Below are positions 25,448-63,232 of a stretch of DNA of 64,000 nucleotides, piece by piece; the first letter of the stretch is position 1; every line of letters starts with the position of its first letter. The notes beneath the pieces were generated by a model. That model saw only the letters and a list, made by a program, of their open reading frames with translations, searched no databases and had not been told where the DNA came from. Position numbers and translations under genes: made by a program. The stretch spans positions 310,001 to 374,000 of the forward strand of contig MKSR01000008.1 of assembly GCA_001898145.1 (NCBI GenBank), given 5' to 3'. The DNA is from Dyadobacter sp. 50-39 (GTDB taxonomy: Bacteria > Bacteroidota > Bacteroidia > Cytophagales > Spirosomataceae).

Positions 25448-25696
25448 ATGCCGAAAACTTTTGCTGAAATTTCCGGGTGGATCTCCGCCAATATCTCCAA
25501 ACACGCAGGAATAGATCCTTCCGAAGTGGCGCTCGACGCCGACATCGCTCATTTTCGGCTGGATTCGCTCATCCTCGTCAACATCACTACCGAGCTGGAA
25601 GAATACATTCCGATGGAATTAAGTCCCTCTATTTTTTGGGAAATGCGCACCATCGCCGCTACCAGCCAATGGATTGCGGAAAACCAGGAAGAATAA
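25448..25696 (+). CDS. Acyl carrier protein
   Basis: An 82-residue carrier protein. The phosphopantetheine site is FRLDSLILVNI with Ser40 in the DSL motif, and the four-helix pattern is visible (FAEISGWISANISKHAG; LVNITTELEEYI; WEMRTIAATSQWIAEN). It differs from the housekeeping AcpP sequence, being most like dedicated carriers in secondary pathways. The ATG at 25448 gives the normal length; upstream in-frame sequence is rejected as non-coding. It is the first gene of a tight cluster (21 bp to the P450 gene) and would present an acyl chain to the P450 and/or the MBOAT protein. Confidence 0.88.
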   Translation: MPKTFAEISGWISANISKHAGIDPSEVALDADIAHFRLDSLILVNITTELEEYIPMELSPSIFWEMRTIAATSQWIAENQEE

Positions 25697-25717
25697 AAGG
25701 CCATCCCCGTTTTGACC

Positions 25718-26926
25718 ATGCAAAATCCCCTCATGTCCGCAACGTCTATCTGGTCAGCCAGCAAGGACGTCAATCAAAATTACGCCGAATTGATCGCGGA
25801 TGTGCGTAAGTCGGACCCGCTGCATTTCAACATGTACGGCGACCTGGTGGCGATGGATTATGCAAATGTGAAAAGGATCCTGTCCGATTCGGACAATTTC
25901 AAGAACTTCGACTTCACGGAAAGATTCAAAATTGTATCCGCCCTTTCGAACAACGACCCCGGCCTGCTGGAATTCGGGGAAAGTCTGCGGTACTGGCTGC
26001 TGTTTATGAATGGCGAGAAGCACGCCGAACACCGGCGTTTCGTAAACCAGAAATTTTACCAGGCCGACTACGAAAAAATCACCCTTGACGCAATCGGGGA
26101 GATCATCGCCGGACTGGACGGACAACCGGAAACCGATCTGGTGGAAATGGCGCGGCAATTCAGCTTTCTGATTATCAGCAAGATCATCCATCTCGAAAAA
26201 TCGGATTTCGATTTCATCCAGAAGTTCTCTTACGTGATCACATTCATATTCGAGAAAACGCTGTCCGTCACTGAGCTGCTGGAATGCGCCGCCATGTCGC
26301 GGACTTTTCACAGCTACCTGTCTGAAACCTTCACCCGTCACGAACGGGAGGCAACAAATAGCCTGTTACTCGAAATGCGGGAGATCATGGGAAGCGCCAG
26401 GGCCGCGCAGCTGATCGGCACCTGGGAATTCCTCGTCAATGCCGCCACCGAAACCACCACCCTGCTGTTGACCAAAAGCATTGCCACGCTGATCGAAAAC
26501 CGCGACAAGGTGATCAACTGGCATACACATAACGAATGTGCCATTGCCGTAGAAGAACTGATCCGGTATGTGAGCCCCGTGAACTGGATACCACGGCAGA
26601 TCGCGCACAATATGGAATTTGAAGGATTGCAGCTGCTCAAAGGCAAAACCGTTCTCCTCGGTCTGGCTTCTGCCAACAGGGACCCGGCAGTGTTTCAAAA
26701 CCCCGATTCGTTCACGCCCTCGCGCAAGCCTAACCCGCACATCGGTTTTGGTTTTGGCATGCACCATTGCCTTGGCGCACGGCTCTCCCGGTTTGAATTG
26801 CAAAAATTCCTCCCGCGTTTCATGGCTGCATTCCCAGACATCCGCATGCATCCCGCGAAAGCCCCTGAATGGGATTCCAAGATTTTCTTCAGAGGCTACA
26901 AGACTTTACCTGTGCTTTTAAGATAA
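25718..26926 (+). CDS. Cytochrome P450
   Basis: A 402-residue soluble bacterial P450. The heme-binding loop is FGFGMHHCLGARL with Cys351 as axial ligand, ExxR is in VEELIRYVSP, and the I-helix has NAATETTTLLL with the oxygen-activating Thr pair. There is no membrane anchor. The start is taken at the ATG at 25718 rather than the TTG at 25712. No ferredoxin or reductase gene is nearby, so redox partners must be shared. Position directly after the ACP suggests that the substrate is an ACP-bound acyl chain, as for known carrier-dependent P450s. The MBOAT gene starts 6 bp downstream. Confidence 0.93.
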   Translation: MQNPLMSATSIWSASKDVNQNYAELIADVRKSDPLHFNMYGDLVAMDYANVKRILSDSDNFKNFDFTERFKIVSALSNNDPGLLEFGESLRYWLLFMNGEKHAEHRRFVNQKFYQADYEKITLDAIGEIIAGLDGQPETDLVEMARQFSFLIISKIIHLEKSDFDFIQKFSYVITFIFEKTLSVTELLECAAMSRTFHSYLSETFTRHEREATNSLLLEMREIMGSARAAQLIGTWEFLVNAATETTTLLLTKSIATLIENRDKVINWHTHNECAIAVEELIRYVSPVNWIPRQIAHNMEFEGLQLLKGKTVLLGLASANRDPAVFQNPDSFTPSRKPNPHIGFGFGMHHCLGARLSRFELQKFLPRFMAAFPDIRMHPAKAPEWDSKIFFRGYKTLPVLLR

Positions 26927-26932
26927 AGGCAC

Positions 26933-28342
26933 ATGATCAAATTCACGGATTTCAGCTATTTACTCCTACTGTCCCTGGCCGTTGCGGCATACTACAAAGT
27001 TCCTGAAACCAAAAAATGGATCTTTTTGCTGGTCACGAGCATCTTGTTCAACCTGAGTTGGAGCGGGAAGTACAGCGTCGTATGGCTGGTACTAGTGCTG
27101 GTCTGCTACGTATCCGGTAAAGCGTTAAGTAATCAGGAATATTCCAAAAAACACCGGAAAGCGCTGCTATCGGTCTCGATCGTGATCTGCCTGATGCCGC
27201 TTCTGTTTTTCAAATACCTGGTACCTGTCCATAATTCCATGTCGCTGGTGGCACTTAACTGGATCGCCCCGATTGGCATTTCCTATTACACATTTCTGAT
27301 CATCGGTTATCTGCACGACGTGTACCGGCGGTATATCAAACCCGAGAGCCATTTGGGTTACCTGATGATCTACCTTAGCTTTTTCCCTACCCTGCTAGCC
27401 GGGCCGCTGGAACGCACGCGCCAGCTGGTGCCTCAGCTCCGCAGCCCGAAACCTTATCTCCCCGAAAATATCAAAGCGGGCATCTACTTCATTGTCTGGG
27501 GTTTATTTAAAAAAATAGTCCTCGCAGCCAGGCTGGCCGACACCACCGGCCCCGTGTTCGACCAGCCCGAATCCTACACGGGCATGTCCGTGACACTGGC
27601 CATTCTGCTGTTCTCGATCCAGCTTTACTGCGATTTTTCGGGTTACACCGACATTGCCACAGGTTCGGCCCGGCTGTTCGGGATCCGGCTCAGCAAAAAC
27701 TTTTCAAACCGCTACTATTTCGCCCCGTCGCGGACGGAATCATGGAGCGCATGGAACATCACAGTCACCTCTTGGTTCCGGGATTATGTCTTTTTCAACA
27801 TCAGCAAAGGCGTCACAAGTCAGAAACGACTGGAATTCAACCGGTTGTTGACATTTGTCATCACTGGTCTCTGGCATGGCCCCAGTTGGTCGTTTGTGAT
27901 CTGGGGATCGCTGCAATGGGCCTACATCAATTTTGAAATGCGCACGAAGCATTTCTGGCAGCAGTTTTATCCGAAACTGGGCCTTTCTACCGGTTCGCAG
28001 GCGCATTTTGTCTGCCGGGTAGTGGTAAGGCTGCTTACCGGAACCCTCATTATGGGATGGTTTCGGGCGGCCGAACTGGGCAGCGGCATCCGGCTGTACA
28101 GCAGCATGTTCGGGTTCAGCTCCGGCGCGGGTTCTCTGCTCACATCCGGTTTCCTGCTGACGATCGCCTTGTTCCTCGTGATGGATTTTTTCAACTACAA
28201 AATGGGCGAGAAAGAGGACATTGCCTCCTACCTGTTGAAGAAGAGCACATTATACCGCACATTATCCATGGTGCTGCTCGTGCAGCTCGTGCTGATATTC
28301 GGCAGACCGTCGGTGGCTAATTTTTACTACATTCAGTTCTGA
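26933..28342 (+). CDS. MBOAT family O-acyltransferase (AlgI/DltB-like)
   Basis: A 469-residue polytopic enzyme that moves acyl groups across or at the membrane onto hydroxyls of a surface acceptor. Family signatures are WSAWNITVTSWFRDYVFFNI (about 273-292) and TGLWHGPSWSFVIWGSLQ with the catalytic His315. An ALGLYCDFSGY-type motif appears as LYCDFSGYTDIATGSARLFGI. It has about 10-12 membrane helices and normal length. It sits between P450 and SGNH genes with gaps of 6 and 17 bp. By analogy with DltB it would accept the acyl chain from the cluster's ACP; the acceptor is unknown. Confidence 0.93.
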   Translation: MIKFTDFSYLLLLSLAVAAYYKVPETKKWIFLLVTSILFNLSWSGKYSVVWLVLVLVCYVSGKALSNQEYSKKHRKALLSVSIVICLMPLLFFKYLVPVHNSMSLVALNWIAPIGISYYTFLIIGYLHDVYRRYIKPESHLGYLMIYLSFFPTLLAGPLERTRQLVPQLRSPKPYLPENIKAGIYFIVWGLFKKIVLAARLADTTGPVFDQPESYTGMSVTLAILLFSIQLYCDFSGYTDIATGSARLFGIRLSKNFSNRYYFAPSRTESWSAWNITVTSWFRDYVFFNISKGVTSQKRLEFNRLLTFVITGLWHGPSWSFVIWGSLQWAYINFEMRTKHFWQQFYPKLGLSTGSQAHFVCRVVVRLLTGTLIMGWFRAAELGSGIRLYSSMFGFSSGAGSLLTSGFLLTIALFLVMDFFNYKMGEKEDIASYLLKKSTLYRTLSMVLLVQLVLIFGRPSVANFYYIQF

Positions 28343-28359
28343 CAATCGTTGCGGGCATT

Positions 28360-29322
28360 ATGATCATCAAACTCACCAAATGGCTGCTGCTGATTATCAG
28401 TTTCAAAATCATCGTGGCGCTCGTCGTCGCGCATTACTACACCGATCCCCGCCGCGACATCCGGGCGCGGAAACAGTATTGCCATGCATTTGCGCCGAAC
28501 GTGGTATTCATCGGCACCAGCCGTACGCTCTACGGCATTGATCCGGCCGTTTTCGATTCGGCAAACCTGCAAAAAACACGGAGTTATAACTTCGGGACAT
28601 TCAGCCTTTCACCTTACAGTTCCATGCGGCTTGCGGATGAGCTGCTCGCTGAAAATACGGCCATCAGTACCATTTACATTGAACTGAGTGCGCTCGATTA
28701 CAGCACCGTGGCCTTGCCGCCGCAGCAGGTTATTCCCGATGCGATTTTCCGGGCTAATGTGCTGGCGAACTGCCCTGGCACCGAGTTCCTCGACAATGCG
28801 GCCAGTTTTCTGGCCGGCCTCAACACGACGCTATTTCAAATGGTATCCATTGCTCCGCAGATATTATCAGTCAAAAAACTGCTCAACCCCGGAAACGATC
28901 CCATCGAAGGCCAGGTCGATTTGGTGGCCAACGGGTACCAGTCCGTGGCAGCAAGCCTTTCCGCCACAAATGACCGGCTCGCGGCCAATCAAGACGCAAC
29001 GAGACAGTTGCTCCGCACGCCCCGTCAAGCAGCTCCCAATACCTACTTCATCTCCCGAATCAACCAACTGATCGCACGCGCCGCAAGCCAGGGAAGGAAA
29101 GTCGTTTTTTATTATCCCAACAACATCACCGGTGGTGAATACAGGATATTGTCGCAGGTAGCGCCATTTCTGCCGGCCGAAAACCTGATTCCTTTACCCG
29201 AACCTCCCCTGCTGGACTCGCTTTTCAACCCACGGAATTTGTTCGACGCACATCATTTGAACAGACAAGGGGCGGGGATTTATACGCGGTTTTTACGGGA
29301 AAAGTCCGGCAGGCAGGAGTGA
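28360..29322 (+). CDS. Membrane-anchored SGNH/DltD-like protein
   Basis: A 320-residue protein with one N-terminal membrane helix (about 6-25) and an extracytoplasmic domain. FIGTSRTLYGIDP (Ser54) looks like SGNH block I, and FDAHHLNRQGAGIYTRFL with Asp296 and His299 looks like block V, giving a Ser-Asp-His set. This matches the accessory hydrolase/transferase partners of MBOAT proteins (DltD, AlgJ/AlgX, PatB). It is the last gene of the ACP-P450-MBOAT cluster, 17 bp after the MBOAT gene. It may complete acyl transfer to the final acceptor. Family assignment rests on motifs and context. Confidence 0.75.
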   Translation: MIIKLTKWLLLIISFKIIVALVVAHYYTDPRRDIRARKQYCHAFAPNVVFIGTSRTLYGIDPAVFDSANLQKTRSYNFGTFSLSPYSSMRLADELLAENTAISTIYIELSALDYSTVALPPQQVIPDAIFRANVLANCPGTEFLDNAASFLAGLNTTLFQMVSIAPQILSVKKLLNPGNDPIEGQVDLVANGYQSVAASLSATNDRLAANQDATRQLLRTPRQAAPNTYFISRINQLIARAASQGRKVVFYYPNNITGGEYRILSQVAPFLPAENLIPLPEPPLLDSLFNPRNLFDAHHLNRQGAGIYTRFLREKSGRQE

Positions 29323-29391: not shown

Positions 29392-31938
29392 TTAAGCTTG
29401 AATCACGCTCTTTTCATCACAGATCTTTTGTAACTCAAGAGGAATGGCATTGCGCCAAAGCTCCCGGATAAATTTTCTGAAACCTACCAATGCTCCGCCG
29501 TCGGAAATCTCCTTTTTAAGAAACTTGTGATCCCTGTCGATCGACTCCTTATTCCGTGAAATCCGCTCGGTAACAATCTGATCATCGATCCCTGTCAGTT
29601 TATCGAAATAGATCAGGCTCACGGCGAAACCATGGATGTAAGACCTTTGCAGGTAATCCTCGATGATAACCTTGCTTTTAATCGGGTCTGCCGTGGCGAG
29701 ATAGCATGCCGAAAAGAAATGCGCTCTGCGTATTCTGGACACCCTGGGGAAGAAAATGTCGGTTTTCTGAGGGAGCGAAATGTACCGGTCGATGCTTCCG
29801 CGGAGGAACGAAACCACGCCATTATAACTCAGATTGGCCCGACCCAGCCCAAAGAGGTCCGATTTGAGATTCACCTTTTTGTGCCGCTCCTTATCATAGC
29901 ATAAACGTCCGTCCGTAACCCTTATCAGCACCTCCGCACGGGCTTCGGGGCTGTGACCATGGCGCCAGATGGATGCACAGGGCGTCCGGTTCTCCTTCAC
30001 ATCCTGAACGTTGCCGACGATATGAATAGAGCTTTTATCGTGCAATACGGTGATATTCAGCTCAGAGTCACGCAGCGTCGCAGTTCCGCGAAACTCCCCT
30101 GATTCCCCTTTCAAAAGCACCTCCCCGTCAGGCATGATCCTTAACGGGCAGACTTCAATGAAGAAGCTCGTTTTCCCTTCATCAATCTTCTCATAATAGG
30201 AACACGAAACGAAATCTCCATGATAGGCTACACGCGGAGTCGGAGGCAGCAGCAATTGCGGATTGCTGTGAAAAAGCCCTAAATCGGTCAGGTTCGAATC
30301 CGTGAAGCCGAGCAGAAAACGGAGAGGCTTCGCAGCCAGGATTGGTGCCTCAACTTCTGTCAGCAAGGTGCTTTTCAGGGTAGTAGCGACAGTTGTTTTC
30401 TGTTGCAGGTAGATCCGGCCGGATATAACGGTATTTACAGCATTTTTTTCGACGCCTGCGTAAATTCCTTTGAGCGTGAGCACGCCCGATTCTTTGGTAC
30501 GGCTCAGCAGAAAATAGGCCCTGCTGTTGGTGATCTTTTGCTGTTCTTTGCTGGTAATCTCCTTGGCATCGGTCAGAACATGTCCGATAATAACCTTGTT
30601 TCCAATGTGTTTTTTGAAATACAGCTGATATTCCGACTGATCGACCATATCTGAAAGCACCATTACTGCCTGACCGGATGGCTCGATCGTGATCGTACAT
30701 TCATCGAGCGTCGGCTCTCCCGAAATGTTCAGCAAATGGCCCTCATACCGACCAGGCAGGTCAGCCGGCAGCATCGAGGGGCGCTTGGCCGCCAGGTCCG
30801 GTTTGGACGATTTTCCATCGGAGTGAATGAGGTCTGACTCCGTAATTTCGAAACGGTTCTGGAACAGAAAATTGAAAATAGACGCTTCTGCATCCGCATT
30901 GAGCCGTGCCTCGTAGTCTTTTTCATCACACGCCACACAAACAACCGCACCTGCTACCCCCAGCCCTTTGTTTTCCCTGGACGAAGAATAGACACCCGTC
31001 AGATAGTCCATCGACCCATTCAGCGTCAAGTGACTGTATATCGGTTTCTGCCTCGTGTTTTTATCCGGATCATCTCCGAACAGCACACTGATGTGCAGCT
31101 CAGTCACGTTCCCCGCGTTCTTATTGAGGTGGATCGCTTTTAATGCCAGGTGTCTGGACCGGTTCCTGGGCAGGGTAAAGGTTGTATTCCCTGCCTCTTG
31201 CCAGCCGTCCGTCCGGATCGTGGCCTTGCCCACGGTATTCAGATGCGTCCAGTAGTAGCATACATACAGGATATTATCGCTTTTTAGCGCTGGAAGGGAT
31301 ACCAGTGGAGGGAGCTGGGGCCCGGGATTTACCGGAAACTCTGTCTGTCCCAATCCTTCGCGATACGCATTGTCGAATTTTGTGACCTTTACACGGACTT
31401 TGGTCCCGTCTCCCGGGTATACTTCCTCGGATTTTACAAACGGATGGAACGTATTGTCCTGCACGGTAGTATCCCGACCGGAAGGCAATACCGCACAAAC
31501 GCCATAGATCTCGCGGTAAAATACGAGCAGTTCAATGCATCGCCGGCTAAAATTTCTTGGAAAATAAGGATTCTCCTTCCTATGATCTATACGGGCCGTT
31601 ACCTTTTCGGTCTTATTCTCAATGTGGTCTTTAATAGAGCTGTACGAATTCAGGATTTTCACATTGTCGGAATCTGGCCCGAATTGCAGTTCGCGGAATC
31701 TGTCGGAGTAACCATACGTCCGCAGAGCTTCATTTCTAATATCGCGACCTATACAATACCTTTTGGTTCTGCTAGTTGATTCGGTCGAAACGAAACTTTC
31801 TTCGTTAACAACCTCCTTGTGTACCGACCTTAGGGCTTTGCGTAGAAGAGCAATTTTTTCGAGGGTAATCTGCTCACCAAAATAATGGAGCAATTCTTTG
31901 TGATACGATTCAATATCGTCGGGTGAGTAGGACAGCAT
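29392..31938 (-). CDS. Large orphan protein with two beta-rich repeat domains, function unknown
   Basis: An 848-residue protein without signal peptide or membrane helices, so probably cytoplasmic. I do not recognise it. The N-terminal 130 residues are helical and charged. Two related beta-rich domains follow, at about 395-500 (starting LPGRYEGHLL, with CTITIEPSGQ) and about 575-680 (starting RVAYHGDFVSCSYY, with CPLRIMPDGE), looking like lipocalin-like sandwiches. The last 170 residues are mixed and basic (FFPRVSRIRRAHFFSACYLA, LKKEISDGGALVGFRKFIREL). The ATG at 31938 is chosen over an upstream TTG. It is divergent from the RHS toxin gene across 230 bp; a regulatory or immunity link is only conjecture. 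Confidence 0.8.
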   Translation of the reverse strand: MLSYSPDDIESYHKELLHYFGEQITLEKIALLRKALRSVHKEVVNEESFVSTESTSRTKRYCIGRDIRNEALRTYGYSDRFRELQFGPDSDNVKILNSYSSIKDHIENKTEKVTARIDHRKENPYFPRNFSRRCIELLVFYREIYGVCAVLPSGRDTTVQDNTFHPFVKSEEVYPGDGTKVRVKVTKFDNAYREGLGQTEFPVNPGPQLPPLVSLPALKSDNILYVCYYWTHLNTVGKATIRTDGWQEAGNTTFTLPRNRSRHLALKAIHLNKNAGNVTELHISVLFGDDPDKNTRQKPIYSHLTLNGSMDYLTGVYSSSRENKGLGVAGAVVCVACDEKDYEARLNADAEASIFNFLFQNRFEITESDLIHSDGKSSKPDLAAKRPSMLPADLPGRYEGHLLNISGEPTLDECTITIEPSGQAVMVLSDMVDQSEYQLYFKKHIGNKVIIGHVLTDAKEITSKEQQKITNSRAYFLLSRTKESGVLTLKGIYAGVEKNAVNTVISGRIYLQQKTTVATTLKSTLLTEVEAPILAAKPLRFLLGFTDSNLTDLGLFHSNPQLLLPPTPRVAYHGDFVSCSYYEKIDEGKTSFFIEVCPLRIMPDGEVLLKGESGEFRGTATLRDSELNITVLHDKSSIHIVGNVQDVKENRTPCASIWRHGHSPEARAEVLIRVTDGRLCYDKERHKKVNLKSDLFGLGRANLSYNGVVSFLRGSIDRYISLPQKTDIFFPRVSRIRRAHFFSACYLATADPIKSKVIIEDYLQRSYIHGFAVSLIYFDKLTGIDDQIVTERISRNKESIDRDHKFLKKEISDGGALVGFRKFIRELWRNAIPLELQKICDEKSVIQA

Positions 31939-32168
31939 GATTAGTCGAGGGGGTGAGTCAGGATTCGTAAACAGCAAGTAAATTAATTAGCGGTTAATTC
32001 CCAGTTGTTACCGGCTAATAATTTTTTTAGCGCGGTACAATAGCGGCTGCGAGGTTCAAACGGCCGGAATTTACCGCCAACCCAGAAACAAATTATATTT
32101 TGTTGCGGGATTGTTTGATGATATAAATAGCCGTGAATTTGTATATCTATTCACTAAAATTCCGTCAA

Positions 32169-35100
32169 ATGACCCAAATCTACCTTAATCCTCACAGACC
32201 AATAATCCGATTATTGGTCTGTGCCTTCCTGCTTTTCCAGGCAGTTGACGGCGTGGCTCAGATGACTTTGCCGGAGTCATCGAACTGGGCGTACTCCACC
32301 GGAACATTCGAAGTGGATGAAAAGGGAGGAGCGAATTTCTCAATGCCGATCATGGTCGCCCCCGGGACCAACGGTCTAGCTCCTACGTTCCTCTCGGTGA
32401 GTTACAATCACCGGAACGGGAATGGCTTGCTGGGACGAGGTTTTACGCTCAATGGCTTCTCGTCTATTTCGCTCACAGGCCTCTCCCGAGCGCATGACGA
32501 AGACTGGCGCACCACGCGCAATGCAGCAACAGGATTTACGCTCGATATGGCAAATACCAGGCTTGCCAAGGATGGCAAAAGACTGGTGATGGCTAATCCG
32601 GTCAATTCCCAACCGCTCAACGCAGGTTACTGGAAAGAAGATGCTCAATTCGTAACCGAACAATTCGACGGCTCCCGCTTTCGCGTCGGGCAGTGGAAAA
32701 ACGGCAGGCCGGTGTACATTCTCGAAGAAACAAAGGATGGCCTGAAAAAATACTACGGCCTTGGAACAGGCGTAGTTTACCTGCCGGGGACTGACACGCC
32801 GGTCAGGTACCTGCTGAGTATGATCACCGACAACTACGGGAATGAGCTCACGATCAGCTATTCGAAGGGGCCCAATGCAAACGTGATCGAATTCTACCCG
32901 CGGCAGATCAAATACACCCAGAACAATGCCAACAAGGTCAGTAGCTACGCCGAGGTGAACTTCCATTACACCAGCAGACCGGACATCATTACGGAATATT
33001 TCTCAGGATATAAATCCGTCGTGAACCAGCGGCTTTCCATGATCCAGGTAACCGGGCTCGCGGGCGTTGTCCGCACCTACATGTTCGACTACGCGCAACT
33101 CTTGTCGACATCGCTGAAAACGAGTCTGCTGAAAGCGATCAGGGAGTCCGCCCCACCAGACTACCAATTGAAGCCCATCGTCTTCAACTGGAACGAGAAA
33201 AAGCTGCAAAGCCTTAACCCGACGCTGAACACCGTACTACCCTCTTCGGTAAAAGACCCGGTATGGGCCGACTGGAACAATGATGGCCTGACGGACTACG
33301 CACGGCTGGAAGGCGAAGAACTGTACATTTATACGAATGGCGGCAACAACAACTACGTAGTTCAGCCGGTGATCAAGGAAATGAAAATGAAGGACTTCCG
33401 GATCGCCGATTTCGACGGGGACACGCGGATCGACCTGCTGGGCTGGGATCCTGCCAGCGGGCAATTCACTTTCTGGATCAATAAATCGGATGGAAAAGGG
33501 GTGCGATTCGTAGCTGTGTCCGATGTTGCGGCCTTCCGGCTGACGGGTTTATCCAAAGACCACTTCAAAGGACGTAAGCAAATCTACTGCAAGGATGTCA
33601 ACGAAGATGGCCAGGCCGATCTGGAAATCTTCAATCAGGATGCGAACGGAAATCTGCTGACGCAGACGGGCGTTTGTTACCTCACCGCATTCCGATGGGG
33701 CGATGCCGTGAAAGCCAGTTTTCAGGTAGCCTACAAATATGCTGAGACATTTCCCGAGACCGTTGCGCTGTACCAGGATCTTGACGACAACGGGCTGCTG
33801 GAAACCATTTTCTGGAATCAAAAGACCGGTGCCAATTGGGTCGTGCGCAAAGACTCCTACGTCACAAAATCAGATGTAAGTGCGCAAAAGAACCAGTATG
33901 GCATCCGGCTTCCCGGAACGAAAGCAAACCTGCTTCCTGCCGCGGCGCTGACACAGACCACCAACCGGCAGATTTACTGGAATGCGAGCCTGAACGATGA
34001 CAACCTCCCCGACGTAGTCATTTTGGACAACAAAGCGCGCTCCCTTACCTATTACATCAACAAAGGGAATTACGCTTACGAACCCGCAGTTGCTGTAAAC
34101 CTCGACAATGCAACCGAAAAGTTCGTGGACACCCAGTCTAAGCTGATTATGGCCGATTTTACGGGTGATGGTGTGGATGATTTCCTGTTCACCAAACCCA
34201 ATGCTTCCGGCCAGCTGGTTAACCGGCTGTATGCCAACTCGGGGCCGGGTTCTTCGATGCTTATGACCAACAAGGTGGACAACTTCCTGCCCTCGGGCAC
34301 GCTTAGAGAGTCCGGCCTTAACCTCGATTTTGGAAATTTTCATCCATCGGCAACGTATGGCGCATGCTTCATCAGTCCGGAGCCCAATAAAGCGCTGAGA
34401 CTCGTCACTTTTGACATGGCACGGATAGAGGAAGACAAGATCACTTCCATTGCATTGGGGAATGGAATGGTTATTACCCCGAAATACGCTCAACTGTCAG
34501 GCACTTTCTATAACCGACTGATCGCAAACGACACCTACGGCCTCAATCTGAAGGAAAACGAATGGTGGATCGCCCCCCTGCATTCGGGATTGGTGGTCGT
34601 GAGCGGATATGACATAGCGGCGAGCAACGTTACACGGACAGTTTCGTACCAATATTCCGTTGGTACCATGGATCTGATCCGTGGCTTCCAGGGATTCAAG
34701 GCGATCACTTCCTCGGGCAATCACGCGGGGCTCAATAGCCGGCGGTATTTCAACTTTCCCGGTTCCGGGGTACCCCAGCTGATCAAATTCAGAGAGGAGT
34801 CTTTCGGCTTGAACGGAAGTGTAATATCCATAACAGCGTACGTGCAGAAAGCCCTGCAGTTCGGAAACAGTAAGGCCTTTTCCGAATGGGTGGGAGAAAA
34901 AACTTTCCAGGAACTCGACATTAACGGCCGGATGAAGTTTATGACGCGGGAGAATGTCACCTGTGACTATTACCTGAATTTGCTGAGGGTTGAAGTGGAT
35001 TTCGGTGGTGGCCACAAAGACATTACAATTTCTGAATATGCCAATTCCGTCAGTCAATGGACATTAGGCCGGGTGGTCAAGGCAAGTTTGCAAAGGCTCG

Positions 35101-38100
35101 CTCCCGATAAACCGGCTCTCAATCGTGTTTCTACATTTGAATACAACACTCAGACCGGGAACCTGGTTAAAGAAACGTCTTTTGCGAACCTGTCTGAAAA
35201 CCTTCGGAAGACGAAAGTTTATGCTTATGATAAGCTGGGCAACATTGTCTCCAGCACCGAAACGGCCTGGAACGGGACCAGGATGGAATCACGGGAAACC
35301 AAAACCACATTCGACGGAACGGCCCGCTTTGTTTCCTCGGTCACCAATGCGAAAGGGCACACCGAGCGGTTTGCCTATGACCAGCGCATTGGCAAAATAA
35401 CGGCCAAAACCGACGCGAACGGGCTGGTTTATAAAATGACCTACGATCCGCTGGGCCGGGAAACGGGCATCGTCAATCCCGATGGGACCTGGGCGAAGAC
35501 TTTCATCGTGCACTACAACAGCAGCATGCACCCTTTTGCACCGGCCGGCACGGCGTACCTGATCGTCCAGGCCTTTTCGAATGGAATGCAGAAAATCACC
35601 TGCTACAATGGCTGGGACTGGAAACTGCGTGAAATACAAACGGGCTTCAATGGGAAGAACATCTTCAAAGATTTCAGCTACGATGCGGGCACGGGCTTGC
35701 TCGTCCGCGAATCGCTACCTTATTTTCAGAATGGCACCCCCGAATGGCGGACCACACGGTATGACAACCAGTTCCAGGTTTCCGGTGTAACCAATCCGGA
35801 TCGATCTACCGAAGGCTGGGCCTATTCGGACAGGAGCATGACGCATACCAATGCAAAAGGACAACGAAATGTGCTGTTTTATAATGAGAGGCGCGCATTG
35901 GTCCGAAAGCAAAACGGCCTGGGGCAGGGCATTACCTTCGATGTGGATCAGGACGGGAACCCGCTTACCATCACGGATCCCGGGGGCATCGCTTCTGTAA
36001 AAAACCGCTACGACGGACGGGGACTACGCATATCGAACACCACGCCGGACCGCGGGACTATCCAGACTTCATTTAACGGATTTGAAGAAACCATTTCAGA
36101 AATCAATGCAAAGGGACAGACCACGCAGCTGACCAGGGACGTGCTGGGCCGGGAAGTCGAAAGAAAAACGGCTGAGGGCGTAACCAAGTTGGTTTACGAC
36201 ACAGGCAACAAAGCTATTGGCAAGGTCTCGGAAGTCCGGCAATGGAATGGCGCATACTTTGTTTATTCCTACGACAACCTAGGACGCGCGCAGAAGAAGC
36301 GCACACAAATCGATGGACGGGAGTTCAACGAATCGGTTGGTTATGACAATCAGGGACGCGTCGCTGGCAAGACCAGGTCGAATGGCTCGGGCGAAAAATA
36401 TCAATATAGTCCTCAGGGATATCTCACCGCCGTCACCGGGCACGACAACAAGATATTGTGGACAACGGGCGGATACGACGCCCGGGGCCTTCAGCAATCC
36501 GAAAACCTGTGGGAAGGACGCTATAAGAGCTCCTACGAATACGATCTCAATGGGCTGCTGACGTCGTCCAATTCACAGATCAGCAGTTCGCAGGCCACTT
36601 TGCAGTCGTTCCGGTTCGCGTATGATCCATTGGGAAACCTTAAAACCCGCACGGACCTGCGGATCAACAAAACCGAGAGCTTTGCCTTCGACGAAATTAA
36701 CCGGCTAACTTTCTCGCAGGTGGCCGGGCAGGCGTCGGTCACACTTTCGTACGACGCGTCGTCGCGCATCAGCACGAAGTCTGATGTGGGTAACTACAAG
36801 TACGCGCCCGGCACTTACAAGCTGACCGGTGTTGATCTGAACGACCCGGACAAATGCATTACCGCATTTCAGGTCAGTTCCACTTACTGGTCTTTCTCGA
36901 GGCTGAAAACGGCTGAGCTGGACTCCATTCGGACGGAATATCATTACGATTGGAACAATCAGCTTATCAAAACGCAGCGGCTCAACAAGAAAACGGGCGT
37001 CTCGGTTACCACCTACCATATGGGCGATTACCAGGAAGAGGTCACGAACGGAAAGACCTCCCGTCAAAGTACTTTCGTAAACATCCTCGGTAAAAAGAAA
37101 GCTGCATACGTGGTCATTCCGGGAAAAAGCACGGGTTGGAATTTCTATTTCCACGACCACCTGGGCTCGATCACAACGGTAGTGAATGACAAAGGTGGTG
37201 TATCAAGACTGGCCTACAACGCCTGGGGCGAACGGCGCAATGCCGATACCTGGGCATCCGTGCCCAAGGGCCGCGATACCACGACGCCATTCGGATTTAC
37301 GGGCCATATTGAAGCCGATGATTTTGGACTGGTGTTCACAGGGGCGCGACTTTATGATCCGTCTCTCGGGATGTTTATTTCCCCGGACGAAATCATCCAG
37401 GACCTGACCGACGTCACCGCATTAAACAGCTACTCCTATTGTGCCTTCAACCCAGTATCCCTGGTTGACCCGACCGGCTTCTCCTGGTTGTCCAAAATTT
37501 TCAAAAAAGCCGTCAAGGTTGTGGTGAACATTGTAAAAGTGGTGGTTCCCGTGGTTGTAGGCGCGGTAGTAACCGCCATAGCCGCCCCACTAGGACCGGT
37601 TGTGGCCGGGGCTGTCGGGAACTTCGCTAAAACCGCCACCGCGGCTGTACTCAATGGGTCCTCCGTCTCGGACGCCCTTAAAGCCGGGTTGAAGGGAGGT
37701 ATTGCCGGGGGCCTTTCCGCGGGCCTTGCATTTGGTGTGGGTGACCTCGCCGAAAAAGCGGGCAGCGCGTGGGGAACCGCGGCGGAATACGGCACGAAGG
37801 TTATCGGTCATGGCGTGAGTCAGGGAGCGGTCAGTTATGCTTCGGGCGGCCAATTTGCACACGGGTTCATGAGCGGTGCATTCACAGCCGCAGCATCGCC
37901 ACTCATCGACGATATTCCGAACTATTCGGGACGCGTAGCTGCCGCAGCCATGGTGGGCGGTACAGCATCCTCACTCGGAGGCGGCTCGTTTTCCAACGGT
38001 GCCATGACCGGAGCGTTTGTGCGGATGTTTAATGATGAGCAACACAGAAGCGTCGTTCGTTACAATGGACAAAAACTGACTGCTTATGACGGTACTGGAA

Positions 38101-38471
38101 AAATTGCTGCAAGCTGTATAGCAATTTCGGGACGATCAGGACATGACCCGCTTCCAAATGGCAGATATTATATTGATACGCCTAACCTTCAAGATGGCAG
38201 TTGGTTTGAGATCAGGTCACATGTAAAGGTGTTCCTATTTGGAGATATGGGTACCTATCGTATTCCATTGCATCCACTTTCCGGAACTGATCTGGGAGGC
38301 AGAAGCGGCTTTTTCATCCATGGTGGCTTTAATGACCAACCTGGCGACACAATGTATGGCACAAATGGGTGTATCAGCACTGCAATGTGCGAGGATGTGA
38401 AGGACTTCCTCAAACAACCCACTTCATTTGGCCCCCACGTACTAGAGGTAAACATTCCAAAAAATCAATGA
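32169..38471 (+). CDS. Sec-exported SpvB/Tc-like RHS protein with L,D-transpeptidase-like C-terminal toxin domain
   Basis: A 2100-residue protein. A signal peptide (about 1-31, ending DGVAQ) leads to an SpvB/TcB-like N-terminus (FSMPIMVAPGTNGLAPTFLSVSYNH, GNGLLGRGF), FG-GAP-type repeats (DWNNDGLTDYARL, IADFDGDTRIDL, ADFTGDGVDDF) and many YD/RHS repeats. The RHS core lies at about 1664-1770 (LGSITTVVNDKGG... GARLYDPSLGMFISPDE... NPVSLVDPTGF). A Gly/Ala-rich segment (about 1775-1950) precedes a distinct tip (1955-2100). The tip contains IHGG (His2051) and YGTNGCIS (Cys2068), the H...S/T-x-G-C site of YkuD/Tlde1-type L,D-transpeptidases. Tip GC is about 43% against about 65% before it, a sign of exchange. 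The ATG at 32169 is preferred over GTG at 32133 because it yields a clean signal peptide. Confidence 0.88.
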   Translation: MTQIYLNPHRPIIRLLVCAFLLFQAVDGVAQMTLPESSNWAYSTGTFEVDEKGGANFSMPIMVAPGTNGLAPTFLSVSYNHRNGNGLLGRGFTLNGFSSISLTGLSRAHDEDWRTTRNAATGFTLDMANTRLAKDGKRLVMANPVNSQPLNAGYWKEDAQFVTEQFDGSRFRVGQWKNGRPVYILEETKDGLKKYYGLGTGVVYLPGTDTPVRYLLSMITDNYGNELTISYSKGPNANVIEFYPRQIKYTQNNANKVSSYAEVNFHYTSRPDIITEYFSGYKSVVNQRLSMIQVTGLAGVVRTYMFDYAQLLSTSLKTSLLKAIRESAPPDYQLKPIVFNWNEKKLQSLNPTLNTVLPSSVKDPVWADWNNDGLTDYARLEGEELYIYTNGGNNNYVVQPVIKEMKMKDFRIADFDGDTRIDLLGWDPASGQFTFWINKSDGKGVRFVAVSDVAAFRLTGLSKDHFKGRKQIYCKDVNEDGQADLEIFNQDANGNLLTQTGVCYLTAFRWGDAVKASFQVAYKYAETFPETVALYQDLDDNGLLETIFWNQKTGANWVVRKDSYVTKSDVSAQKNQYGIRLPGTKANLLPAAALTQTTNRQIYWNASLNDDNLPDVVILDNKARSLTYYINKGNYAYEPAVAVNLDNATEKFVDTQSKLIMADFTGDGVDDFLFTKPNASGQLVNRLYANSGPGSSMLMTNKVDNFLPSGTLRESGLNLDFGNFHPSATYGACFISPEPNKALRLVTFDMARIEEDKITSIALGNGMVITPKYAQLSGTFYNRLIANDTYGLNLKENEWWIAPLHSGLVVVSGYDIAASNVTRTVSYQYSVGTMDLIRGFQGFKAITSSGNHAGLNSRRYFNFPGSGVPQLIKFREESFGLNGSVISITAYVQKALQFGNSKAFSEWVGEKTFQELDINGRMKFMTRENVTCDYYLNLLRVEVDFGGGHKDITISEYANSVSQWTLGRVVKASLQRLAPDKPALNRVSTFEYNTQTGNLVKETSFANLSENLRKTKVYAYDKLGNIVSSTETAWNGTRMESRETKTTFDGTARFVSSVTNAKGHTERFAYDQRIGKITAKTDANGLVYKMTYDPLGRETGIVNPDGTWAKTFIVHYNSSMHPFAPAGTAYLIVQAFSNGMQKITCYNGWDWKLREIQTGFNGKNIFKDFSYDAGTGLLVRESLPYFQNGTPEWRTTRYDNQFQVSGVTNPDRSTEGWAYSDRSMTHTNAKGQRNVLFYNERRALVRKQNGLGQGITFDVDQDGNPLTITDPGGIASVKNRYDGRGLRISNTTPDRGTIQTSFNGFEETISEINAKGQTTQLTRDVLGREVERKTAEGVTKLVYDTGNKAIGKVSEVRQWNGAYFVYSYDNLGRAQKKRTQIDGREFNESVGYDNQGRVAGKTRSNGSGEKYQYSPQGYLTAVTGHDNKILWTTGGYDARGLQQSENLWEGRYKSSYEYDLNGLLTSSNSQISSSQATLQSFRFAYDPLGNLKTRTDLRINKTESFAFDEINRLTFSQVAGQASVTLSYDASSRISTKSDVGNYKYAPGTYKLTGVDLNDPDKCITAFQVSSTYWSFSRLKTAELDSIRTEYHYDWNNQLIKTQRLNKKTGVSVTTYHMGDYQEEVTNGKTSRQSTFVNILGKKKAAYVVIPGKSTGWNFYFHDHLGSITTVVNDKGGVSRLAYNAWGERRNADTWASVPKGRDTTTPFGFTGHIEADDFGLVFTGARLYDPSLGMFISPDEIIQDLTDVTALNSYSYCAFNPVSLVDPTGFSWLSKIFKKAVKVVVNIVKVVVPVVVGAVVTAIAAPLGPVVAGAVGNFAKTATAAVLNGSSVSDALKAGLKGGIAGGLSAGLAFGVGDLAEKAGSAWGTAAEYGTKVIGHGVSQGAVSYASGGQFAHGFMSGAFTAAASPLIDDIPNYSGRVAAAAMVGGTASSLGGGSFSNGAMTGAFVRMFNDEQHRSVVRYNGQKLTAYDGTGKIAASCIAISGRSGHDPLPNGRYYIDTPNLQDGSWFEIRSHVKVFLFGDMGTYRIPLHPLSGTDLGGRSGFFIHGGFNDQPGDTMYGTNGCISTAMCEDVKDFLKQPTSFGPHVLEVNIPKNQ

Positions 38472-60101: not shown

Positions 60102-60175
60102 TTTTGATGGACTCCAATGTCAGTTGTTGTTGAGTTTAAACCTAACATTCCCTCGTTAAGTCTGTGTTTTCAGGT

Positions 60176-63100
60176 ATGAAAAGTTGGTGGTTCGGCCGGT
60201 TTCGTGTTGTTTTGATTGTAGTGGCATTGGTAGTGCTTACCTCCATGGGATCTGTTGCGTGGAAAATGATGGCGGTCAGGACTGTGACAGTCGAACGTGC
60301 ACCTGCCGTTGTCGAAGCCAAACACAAAGCTCCCAAGAAGCGCCGCGATCCGGTGCTGGTATTGCCGGAAAACGAATGGGTGGACAGCACCCTCAAATCC
60401 CTGAGTATCGAGCAGAAAATCGGCCAGCTATTCATGGTGGCAACCTTCTCGAACCGCGACGAATCGCATTATAAATACATCGACAAGCTGATCAACGACT
60501 ACCAGATCGGCGGCCTGATCTTCTTCCAGGGCGGCCCGGTGGGCCAGGCGCAGCTTACCAATCGCTATCAGTCGCATTCCAATATCCCGCTTTTTATCGG
60601 CATAGACGGCGAATGGGGCCTGGGTATGCGCCTCGACAGCACGATTTCCTTCCCTAAACAAATGGTACTCGGCTCGATCCAGGACGATCAGCTGATTTAC
60701 CGCATGGGCGACGACATTGCCCGCCAGTGTAAGCGGCTCGGCATCCAGATCAACTTCGCGCCGGTTGCCGACGTCAACAGCAACCCGGCCAACCCGGTGA
60801 TCGGTATACGTTCTTTCGGCGAGGACCGCGATAACGTGACCCGGAAGTCGATTGCCTACATGAAAGGCTTGCAGCACAATCGCATTATTGCCACAGCCAA
60901 GCATTTCCCCGGGCATGGGGATACGGATGCGGATTCGCATTTCACATTGCCTGTGCTGACGCATTCTCTCGAACAGCTTAACAATACCGACCTTTACCCT
61001 TACCGCGAGATGATCGCGGACAGCCTCATGGGTGTGCTCAACGCGCATTTGTACATTCCTGCGCTGGACAACACGCCCAACCAGGCCAGCTCGCTTTCGG
61101 ATAAAGTGGTAACCGGCCTCCTCCGAAAAGACCTCGGCTTCCGCGGCCTGGTGTTTACCGATGCCATGAATATGCGGGGCGTGCTGAAAAATGGCAAGGC
61201 CGCCGATGTGAACCTCAAAGCACTGGTAGCGGGCAATGACGTGCTGCTCTACCCCGAGAGCATTGCCGAGACGATTACGCGGATCAAAGACGCGATCAAT
61301 CAAAAACAGATCAGCGAGAAGATCATCGACGATAAAGTCAAACGCATTTTACAGGCCAAGTACTGGGCGGGCCTCAGCAAATACCAGCCTATCGACATCA
61401 ATAACCTGTATTCCGACCTGAATAGCGAGAAAAGCAAGGAGCTCTACCGCGAACTCTGCGAGGCGTCGGTGACTGTGGTGAAAAACGACAATAACCTGCT
61501 CCCGATCGGCTCGGTTATGGACAACAATATGGCTTCGGTGAGTATTGGAGAGGGCAGCAGCGTCGCATTCCAGAAAATGCTTTCGACCTACAAACCCATG
61601 CGGAGCTATTCTTTCTACGACGGACCTTCGTCTCAAGAGCAGATCAGCGAAATGCTGGGTTACCTGGAACCATACAATACCGTGATCGTAGACATTCACG
61701 GCATCAGCTCGAAGCCCGGCCGGAACTATGGTGTTACTACCGGTATGGTCGATTTTGTGAACCAGCTGAAACAGCAGCACAAAAAAGTAATCCTTTGTCT
61801 CTTTGGTACCCCATACAGCATTCCGTTTTTTCCCGAAACAGACGTGCTCATCTGCACCAGTCAGGACGGAAAGGACCAGCAGGAAATCGTACCTCAGATT
61901 ATCTTCGGCGCATTGCCCTCGAAGGGACGCCTGCCGGTGTCGGTACTGGCCTACAAAACAGGGGCCGGTGTAAACACCACGACCATCAACCGCATCGCAT
62001 TCGGGACGCCTGAGAGCGTGGGTATCGACGGTAATTCGCTCAAAAAAATCGATGAAATTGCCAACGCGGCGGTGAATGACCATGTATTTCCCGGCTGCGA
62101 GGTGCTGGTAGCCCGACAAGGCAAGATTATTTACGAAAAGCAGTTCGGCGGGCTGAGCTACCGCACCACCGACCGAGTAACGCCTGAAACCATTTACGAC
62201 CTGGCCTCACTCACCAAAGTTTCGGCCACATTACAGGCTGTGATGCTCCTTTACGACCGGAAACAGATCAGTCTGGACGAGAAAGCTTCGAAATACCTCC
62301 CGGAACTGGCTGGTACCAATAAGCAGAACTTCACCGTCCGCGACTTGCTCCTGCACCGCTCGGGGCTCATTTCTTTCTATCCATCGCTTTGGGACAGGAC
62401 CAAAACCAGCGCCGGAGGCCTGCTGCCTGAATATTACAGTTCAAAACAAGACACGGCCTATTATTTACAGGTAGCACCCAAACTTTTTGCCAAACCTGCC
62501 TTGCGCGATTCGGTGTGGAAATGGGTGGTGGAATCTCCTATGAACAACCGCCGCGACCGCGCCGGTAACTACGGGTACCTTTACAGCGATCTTGGCTTTC
62601 TGACGCTTCAAAAAATAGTTGAAAAAATAACCGGCCAGCCCCTGGATATTTTTGTGGCCGCCAACATTTACGAGCCGCTGGGACTGCCTTATCTCGGCTT
62701 CAATCCCCTGCGCCGTTTTCCTGAAAAACAGATTGCGCCTACGGAACAGGATTACCGTTTTCGCGGGCAGTTACTCCAAGGGACCGTGCATGATCAGATG
62801 GCGGCCATTGTAGGCGGTGTTTCGGGACATGCGGGGCTTTTCGGTACCGCCCGTGACCTTGCCGTCTTACTGCAGATGAACTTGTGGAAGGGCAATTATG
62901 CCGGCAAACGCTATTACGAACAGGCTACCGTGCCATTTTTTTCGCGCTTGTACGACGAATCGCACCACCGCGGATTAGGCTGGGACAAAGCACCCGCAGA
63001 CGGCAACAGTTCCTACGTTTCAGCACAGGCGTCGGTAAACTCATTCGGGCACACCGGCTTTACGGGTACTATGGTGTGGGTGGATCCGGAGGAAGATATT

Positions 63101-63232
63101 GTGTTTGTATTTCTTTCCAACCGCGTGAACCCGGATGCCGAAAACACTGCCATTACCACCCAACGTACACGGCGAAAAATCCAGGACGTAGTGTATAGTT
63201 CGTTGATCCAACGGAAAAGCCAGCTTCCATAA
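60176..63232 (+). CDS. GH3 beta-N-acetylhexosaminidase fused to class C beta-lactamase-type serine hydrolase
   Basis: A 1018-residue exported or membrane-anchored enzyme (hydrophobic segment about 10-30). The GH3 domain (about 65-400) has the NagZ motif KHFPGHGDTDADSH (Lys242-His255) and the nucleophile Asp329 in FTDAMNMRGV. A GH3 C-terminal domain follows to about 600. The serine hydrolase domain (about 630-1018) has SLTK (Ser678, Lys681), YSD in YLYSDLGFLTLQKI and HTGFTG as the third motif. NagZ cleaves GlcNAc-anhydroMurNAc peptides, and the second domain could hydrolyse D-amino acid or ester bonds, so both halves suit peptidoglycan recycling. Such fusions recur in Bacteroidota. The ATG at 60176 is used. 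Confidence 0.92.
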   Translation: MKSWWFGRFRVVLIVVALVVLTSMGSVAWKMMAVRTVTVERAPAVVEAKHKAPKKRRDPVLVLPENEWVDSTLKSLSIEQKIGQLFMVATFSNRDESHYKYIDKLINDYQIGGLIFFQGGPVGQAQLTNRYQSHSNIPLFIGIDGEWGLGMRLDSTISFPKQMVLGSIQDDQLIYRMGDDIARQCKRLGIQINFAPVADVNSNPANPVIGIRSFGEDRDNVTRKSIAYMKGLQHNRIIATAKHFPGHGDTDADSHFTLPVLTHSLEQLNNTDLYPYREMIADSLMGVLNAHLYIPALDNTPNQASSLSDKVVTGLLRKDLGFRGLVFTDAMNMRGVLKNGKAADVNLKALVAGNDVLLYPESIAETITRIKDAINQKQISEKIIDDKVKRILQAKYWAGLSKYQPIDINNLYSDLNSEKSKELYRELCEASVTVVKNDNNLLPIGSVMDNNMASVSIGEGSSVAFQKMLSTYKPMRSYSFYDGPSSQEQISEMLGYLEPYNTVIVDIHGISSKPGRNYGVTTGMVDFVNQLKQQHKKVILCLFGTPYSIPFFPETDVLICTSQDGKDQQEIVPQIIFGALPSKGRLPVSVLAYKTGAGVNTTTINRIAFGTPESVGIDGNSLKKIDEIANAAVNDHVFPGCEVLVARQGKIIYEKQFGGLSYRTTDRVTPETIYDLASLTKVSATLQAVMLLYDRKQISLDEKASKYLPELAGTNKQNFTVRDLLLHRSGLISFYPSLWDRTKTSAGGLLPEYYSSKQDTAYYLQVAPKLFAKPALRDSVWKWVVESPMNNRRDRAGNYGYLYSDLGFLTLQKIVEKITGQPLDIFVAANIYEPLGLPYLGFNPLRRFPEKQIAPTEQDYRFRGQLLQGTVHDQMAAIVGGVSGHAGLFGTARDLAVLLQMNLWKGNYAGKRYYEQATVPFFSRLYDESHHRGLGWDKAPADGNSSYVSAQASVNSFGHTGFTGTMVWVDPEEDIVFVFLSNRVNPDAENTAITTQRTRRKIQDVVYSSLIQRKSQLP

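Follow-up and report, generated by a model that had tools for sequence, protein, structure and literature searches.

What could an acyl carrier protein (ACP), a cytochrome P450, a membrane-bound O-acyltransferase (MBOAT) and an SGNH-family protein do together when their genes stand side by side? This question is raised by a 64,000-nucleotide stretch of Dyadobacter sp. 50-39 (contig MKSR01000008.1, positions 310,001 to 374,000), hereafter called the window, which carries such a quartet and lies on contig C8 of genome G000. MBOAT-SGNH pairs put small acyl groups on surface polymers, and with a carrier, the acyl group could be tailored enzymatically before its export. Herein, the quartet is followed through related genomes, and the evidence makes it probable that it encodes an MBOAT-SGNH acylation pathway that is fed by a carrier protein and includes an oxidation step. 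No description of this gene combination was found in open-licence papers of PubMed Central, and in the searched portion of a review of fatty acyl-AMP ligases (FAALs) the terms MBOAT and P450 are both absent (PMC11837247). Genomes are labeled G (G000 is the window's own), fetched loci are labeled L, and a sister genus is labeled g2.

The four genes of the locus

The four open reading frames (ORFs) occupy positions 25448-29322 of the window, all on the + strand, with intergenic gaps of 21, 6 and 17 bp. An earlier note on this DNA had described these positions, gaps and catalytic residues, and the ORFs and alignments agree with it: Ser40, Cys351 (with E280-R283 and E245-T246), His315 and Ser54/Asp296/His299 all fall at conserved columns. 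The first gene (25448-25696, +) encodes an ACP of 82 aa with its phosphopantetheine site at Ser40. The P450 gene (25718-26926, +) encodes 402 aa from its ATG, with heme Cys351; an alternative TTG start at 25712 is present in the ORF list. The MBOAT gene (26933-28342, +) encodes 469 aa with His315 and a C-terminal FYYIQF that includes Tyr466. The Pfam scores of these three proteins are all over the cut-offs (PP-binding, 40.6 bits; p450, 75.2 bits; MBOAT, 86.8 bits). The last gene (28360-29322, +) encodes a predicted membrane-anchored SGNH protein of 320 aa with Ser54/Asp296/His299.

The ACP serine is present in all 15 aligned ACPs. The top NCBIfam match of the window ACP is the N-terminal ACP of Pks13, and the Pks13 ACP (7wrp) is also one of its four solved relatives, the others being 2n98, 4hkg and Asl1650. 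The DltC and DltD family models were unmatched by the window proteins in Pfam and NCBIfam at E 0.001.

Distribution and conservation of the quartet

The earlier note made its proposal depend on ACP, P450 and MBOAT genes occurring together beyond this strain, and they do. Including the window, 36 quartet loci were found: 24 in Dyadobacter (22 of the window type and two divergent), ten in other genomes of the order, and L095 and L104. The last two come from a P450 scan of named genomes in which the best 80 loci were listed, so the count is at least 36. The gene order ACP-P450-MBOAT-SGNH is kept in 35 of the 36, mostly with short gaps or overlaps as measured from mechanically set ORF starts; the ACP of L218, missed by tblastn, was read from the ORFs.

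In the Spirosomataceae search (222 genomes), a P450 with 72-100% identity was found in 22 genomes, the window's included, and the four genes are co-linear in 21 of the 21 others. Beyond these orthologues, the eight best P450 matches were fetched, five more later, and weaker ones were left out. Among those best eight of many weaker matches (26-29% identity), the whole quartet is present in five: L056, L059 and L060 (the divergent Dyadobacter quartets), L062 (Larkinella soli) and L063. The other three, L057, L058 and L061, belong to the Larkinella genus of L062 and have FAAL-ACP-P450 with no MBOAT match nearby.

A P450 profile search of 390 genomes of the order gave 26 at E 1e-60. Eleven newly fetched loci of the order comprise seven quartets (L213-L219), two ACP-P450 pairs, one locus with neither (L223) and one at a contig end (L222). 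The two pairs, without MBOAT, lie at L220:9240-10666 and L221:9037-10494, in two genomes of another Cytophagales family. There is no quartet at the P450 of G103, and in G311 the contig stops directly 3' of the P450. A search of 395 genomes of the phylum added only G654 and G735 over the profile cut-off; both have a P450-ferredoxin-like pair with no ACP by ORF reading and were set aside.

The scan of named genomes added L095, from a Chitinophagaceae metagenome-assembled genome (MAG), and L104, from a Crocosphaera MAG. The cyanobacterial L104 is the reordered locus, FAAL-P450-ACP-MBOAT-SGNH. Most of the best 80 listed P450 loci are generic, and an ACP or FAAL stands beside the P450 (tblastn) in eight: L094, L095, L097, L102, L104, L107, L114 and L151, where L094 repeats G051 and L114 repeats G138. 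L094, from Dyadobacter alkalitolerans DSM 23607, has the complete five-gene set FAAL-ACP-P450-MBOAT-SGNH. L116, L154 and L167, also among the 80, have weaker AMP-ligase matches and no ACP match; in L167 (10001-13568, Streptomyces chumphonensis) a FAAL-like gene is downstream of the P450 (E 9e-66).

Across the 22 window-type loci, the median dN/dS is 0.075 for the ACP, 0.055 for the P450, 0.063 for the MBOAT and 0.14 for the SGNH gene (50-92 of 231 pairs with dS <2, with synonymous sites near saturation in many pairs). The value of the SGNH gene is about twice that of the other three, as expected if the SGNH protein faces a varying acceptor. Since the quartet is held in 36 loci, 35 of them in the same order, and dN/dS is well below 1 for all four genes, chance adjacency is rejected. 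The grouping is not due to chance.

The MBOAT and SGNH proteins

The catalytic His315 of the window MBOAT lies in GLWHG, and the WH is kept in all 35 other cluster MBOATs. FYYIQF ends the protein in all 22 window-type loci. All 36 MBOATs have the shuttle Tyr (-4) and the terminal Phe (-1); in 11 of them, A, N or S takes the place of the first Phe. A C-terminal acyl-shuttle Tyr is known from PatA and DltX, where it passes the acyl group to the SGNH or DltD partner, and Dlt is the only MBOAT-SGNH pathway described as carrier-fed in the consulted portion of that source (PMC12148441). With its His, shuttle motif and adjacent SGNH gene, the window MBOAT has the features of MBOAT-SGNH pairs, and polymer acylation is predicted.

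DltB is the sole solved relative of the MBOAT sequence at E 0.01. With the DltB equivalog model TIGR04091 the score is 139.1 bits, below the cut-off of 375. Similarly, a Foldseek search with the AlphaFold model (pLDDT 86.5) gave DltB first (4.5e-14), followed by human PORCN and HHAT, which are long-chain enzymes. The 22 window-type MBOATs carry Asn (275 in the window) at the position of the second His of DltB and other aligned MBOATs. Asn275 was considered as a defect and this was dropped, since all 22 window-type loci have it (by pattern in 21 and by eye in L047); it is treated as lineage-specific. Some eukaryotic long-chain MBOATs have Asn or Asp at this position. No DltB residue numbers were found by a term search in the available part of PMC11035591.

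The fourth protein was called DltD-like in the earlier note. Of its catalytic residues, Ser54 and His299 are invariant and Asp296 is nearly so in 23 rows. The AlphaFold model (pLDDT 86.7) has an SGNH-type fold with an N-terminal helix at residues 2-26 as a possible anchor, and DltD is among the fold matches. The E values are weak, and no Pfam or NCBIfam model, that of DltD included, matches the protein at E 0.001.

The cytochrome P450

E245, T246, E280, R283 and C351 of the P450 are invariant in ten rows, the window and nine relatives. By pattern in the other 35 loci, the heme Cys is present in 34, ExxR in 34 and the acid-alcohol pair in 32. By eye, the P450s of L041, L214 and L219 keep the motif residues, and that of L104 keeps the Cys and ExxR and seems to be without the acid of the pair. 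The best solved relatives are PksS (4yzr) and then P450BioI (3ejb, about 112 bits).

In a tree of 60 P450s, 35 carrier-linked P450s are parted from 25 others by a 99/97 branch. The carrier-linked rows represent 26 of the 36 quartet loci, seven FAAL-ACP-P450 sets and two ACP-P450 pairs; the 25 others were picked by hand, not at random. The cyanobacterial loci L097, L102, L107 and L151 have FAAL-ACP, a related P450 and then a large protein that starts like a polyketide synthase (PKS), with PKS domains confirmed for L097 only. The P450 of L151 is apparently broken into two ORFs. These neighborhoods fit a P450 that would act on FAAL-loaded, carrier-bound chains feeding either a PKS or an MBOAT-SGNH pair.

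The candidate loading enzyme and its synteny

The earlier note held that the loading step must be supplied from elsewhere, as the cluster has no DltA-like ligase. None is present in the window cluster (a genome-wide DltA search was not made), and the linked ligases scanned in relatives, three in number, are FAAL-like. In 17 of the 36 loci the first gene of the set is a FAAL (14 window-type Dyadobacter loci, L056, L062 and L104), and in eight the FAAL lies elsewhere in the genome. The note's remark on loading is borne out for these 25 of 36 loci or their genomes; ten quartet genomes have no FAAL (see below). With a FAAL in these 25, a fatty acyl group is a better candidate than D-Ala or an amino acid.

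The ligases upstream of the ACP in L056, L057 and L062 have 583-589 aa with Pfam AMP-binding and a DIP2-like C-terminal domain, and L058 and L061 have close FAAL relatives (63-64%). The FAAL of the window's genome is at G000:C19:98307-99977, beside a second ACP. For this FAAL and those of L056, L057 and L062, a model for nonribosomal peptide synthetases (NRPS) and PKS leads in NCBIfam over the N-terminal part, followed by fatty-acid--AMP ligase models, all below curated cut-offs. The best solved matches of the C19 ligase are 7r7f and 3kxw, which we take to be FAAL-type chains, and FadD23 and FadD32, classed by name (3e-103 to 2e-65). Other adenylating enzymes follow only from 5e-37, with the acyl-CoA ligase FadD13 at 1.5e-26. 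By these matches the C19 ligase is nearer in sequence to FAALs than to acyl-CoA ligases, and transfer to an ACP rather than to coenzyme A (CoA) is predicted.

With the FAAL as the query, 24 of 48 Dyadobacter genomes gave a strong match (E <1e-60), namely all 22 genomes with a window-type quartet and also G065 and G091. The remaining 24, including G058 and G092, have weak ligase matches only. The co-occurrence of FAAL and window-type quartet in the 48 genomes has a Fisher p of 1e-11, a value inflated by relatedness. In 14 of the 22, the FAAL directly precedes the ACP, and these 14 all have the complete FAAL-ACP-P450-MBOAT-SGNH set at one site, between gene families c2 and c3 (c3 is symporter-like by eye). 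In the other eight, including the window's genome, the system is split: the old site holds the FAAL and a second ACP (64-69% identity with that of the window), next to c3 in seven of the eight by ORF calling. The surroundings of the relocated cassettes differ among the window, L035, L036, L037 and L041, and are common to L038-L040.

The eight split cassettes nest inside the complete ones in the MBOAT tree, next to L042 (100/100); this tree has a long-branch warning and is relied on only for that nesting. Because of the nesting, the split state is taken as derived. In the ACP tree, the window's ACP groups with the ACPs of complete operons (98/97), and nine of ten FAAL-site ACPs form a separate group (99/99), with L182 apart. 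The trees and the synteny therefore indicate that the cassette in the window descends from the five-gene system by relocation or re-acquisition, with the ligase left behind. The FAAL at C19 may then load the cassette ACP in trans.

A FAAL survey of 390 genomes of the order gave a FAAL at E 1e-100 in 26, comprising 14 quartet genomes and 12 others with 15 FAAL loci. Of these 15, 12 were read, one per genome: nine look PKS- or NRPS-linked and three are by efflux genes. No MBOAT was seen at these 12 loci by eye (ORF calling, with no hidden Markov model run).

Proposed mechanism and alternative explanations

The proposed pathway has four steps. A FAAL (the one on C19 in the window's genome) would activate a fatty acid and load it on the ACP's phosphopantetheine. 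The P450 would then oxidise, most simply hydroxylate, the chain on the carrier. At the cytoplasmic face, the MBOAT would take the acyl group from the ACP, and His315 would pass it to the protein's own Tyr466. Finally, the anchored SGNH protein would take the acyl group via Ser54 and ester-link it to an acceptor beyond the inner membrane, with a glycan of the envelope as the likeliest candidate. It is conceivable, and put forward tentatively, that the systems form a class of envelope lipidation, in which a FAAL-activated long-chain fatty acid is hydroxylated by the P450 on a dedicated ACP and the oxidised chain is ester-linked by the MBOAT-SGNH pair to capsule or another surface glycan.

The best clue to the acceptor comes from g2. 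The g2 quartets adjoin Wzi-like (capsule-type) genes; two were tested, both in L215, and both match PF14052, and the others were assigned by eye or from their family cluster. The neighborhood of the L063 quartet has confirmed glycosyltransferase, epimerase and heparinase-type genes. The oxidised-acyl surface modification of the earlier note is partly supported by these Wzi genes and by an MBOAT with the acyl-shuttle motif of envelope acylation pairs.

Several observations weigh against the proposed pathway. Glycan-type genes were seen beside the quartet only in g2, apart from one opposite-strand gene in L056, and the window's flanks are not common to relatives; because the cassette moves, flanks outside g2 are unhelpful for the acceptor. 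The first Foldseek matches of the SGNH protein include DltD, TesA and PatB at weak values (7.5e-3, 0.016 and 0.032), with none at 1e-3 or better, and the catalytic Asp is replaced by Asn in three of the five g2 members (L063, L213 and L215), three of the 35 other loci. No ferredoxin gene was noticed in the quartets by eye, with no search aimed at ferredoxins. In L050 (G056), the FAAL upstream of the quartet is interrupted and gives two matching pieces. In G065 and G091 (L182 and L183), FAAL-ACP is at the ancestral site without the P450 cassette. The FAAL-ACP pair may have another job there, and the FAAL of the window's genome could serve only its neighbor ACP. Lastly, the FAAL search, which took in all quartet genomes but that of L095, found no FAAL at E <=1e-20 in ten: G058, G092, G002, G004, G005, G013, G023, G102, G265 and G316. 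Their MBOATs group together (96/87), and with that of L095 at 100/100. FAAL loading is therefore non-universal and loading differs among the quartets; those without a FAAL must load the ACP by another route, perhaps from fatty acid synthesis.

These ten genomes would also suit a cargo other than a long fatty acid (an amino acid, a short acyl group or a branched acid), carried in a Dlt- or NRPS-like manner and hydroxylated by the P450, and so would the fact that the closest solved MBOAT relative, DltB, is a D-Ala transferase. The FAALs of the other 25 loci or genomes speak for a fatty acid, as do the Pks13-type ACP, which matches no DltC model, and the long-chain enzymes PORCN and HHAT behind DltB in the fold search; such a cargo is considered improbable. 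Another explanation places the product outside the envelope polymers: a small oxidised fatty acid or oxylipin would be made and exported, with the SGNH protein as a hydrolase or as a transferase to a small acceptor. The thioesterase TesA among the SGNH fold matches, the cyanobacterial FAAL-ACP-P450 sets before PKS-like genes and the lack of recognised glycan genes beside most quartets could all be understood in this way. It is rather unlikely, since an N-terminal membrane helix is predicted for the SGNH protein and its partner is a shuttle-Tyr MBOAT, as in polymer acylation, and Wzi-type genes adjoin the quartet in g2.

The MBOAT-SGNH pair could in principle be an ordinary acetyl-CoA O-acetylation pair with the ACP-P450 as an unrelated neighbor. 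Two MBOAT paralogues of the window's own genome (L185 and L186) gave no ACP or P450 match, and the gene downstream of each looks SGNH-like by eye. However, the MBOAT has the ACP and P450 genes beside it in 36 loci, mostly with short gaps or overlaps, and even after relocation to several unrelated contexts, which makes this explanation, already disfavoured, highly improbable.

If the carrier-fed acylation pathway is correct, natural-product starter modules (FAAL-ACP-P450, kin to the sets preceding cyanobacterial PKS-like genes) were re-used for surface modification, and carrier-fed export is not limited to D-alanine. The loci provide a natural series of complete operons (as in D. alkalitolerans DSM 23607), split systems (as in the window) and versions without FAAL.

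Other genes of the window

Adjoining the quartet, 29392-31977 (-) encodes an 861-aa protein without a Pfam or NCBIfam match at E 0.001. The gene at 32133-38471 (+) encodes a 2112-aa RHS/SpvB-like protein, which looks like a polymorphic secreted protein; its C-terminus matches YkuD weakly (21.2 bits, cut-off 23.4). At 60164-63232 (+), a 1022-aa fusion of a glycosyl hydrolase family 3 domain and a beta-lactamase-family domain is encoded.

Comparison with known systems

P450BioI acts on acyl-ACP and cleaves the chain to a pimeloyl unit. It is the second-best solved relative of the window P450, at a modest score, and stands in different gene company; for the window P450, oxidation of the chain is proposed. 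FAAL-ACP lipoinitiation of PKS and NRPS pathways shares the FAAL and the Pks13-like ACP, and in its cyanobacterial counterparts a related P450 also precedes a PKS-like gene. In contrast, the quartet loci are without PKS or NRPS, and the chain would go to the MBOAT-SGNH pair.

In PatA-PatB O-acetylation, the MBOAT likewise ends in a FXYXXF-type shuttle and an SGNH protein with Ser/Asp/His adjoins. PatA uses acetyl-CoA, and PatA-PatB-type pathways are said to have no carrier protein in the consulted portion of PMC12148441, whereas the window system has an ACP, a P450 and often a linked FAAL. The Dlt system (DltA-DltC-DltB-DltX-DltD) is similar in that a carrier feeds the MBOAT and a Tyr shuttle hands the acyl group to DltD, the SGNH counterpart, according to the same portion of that source (PMC12148441); DltB is also the nearest solved MBOAT by sequence and by fold. 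Unlike Dlt, the quartet sets have a FAAL instead of DltA in the 17 linked loci, a P450 is added, and the shuttle motif is fused to the MBOAT instead of being carried on DltX. By analogy, the window system would join Dlt's kind of donor with PatA's kind of shuttle.

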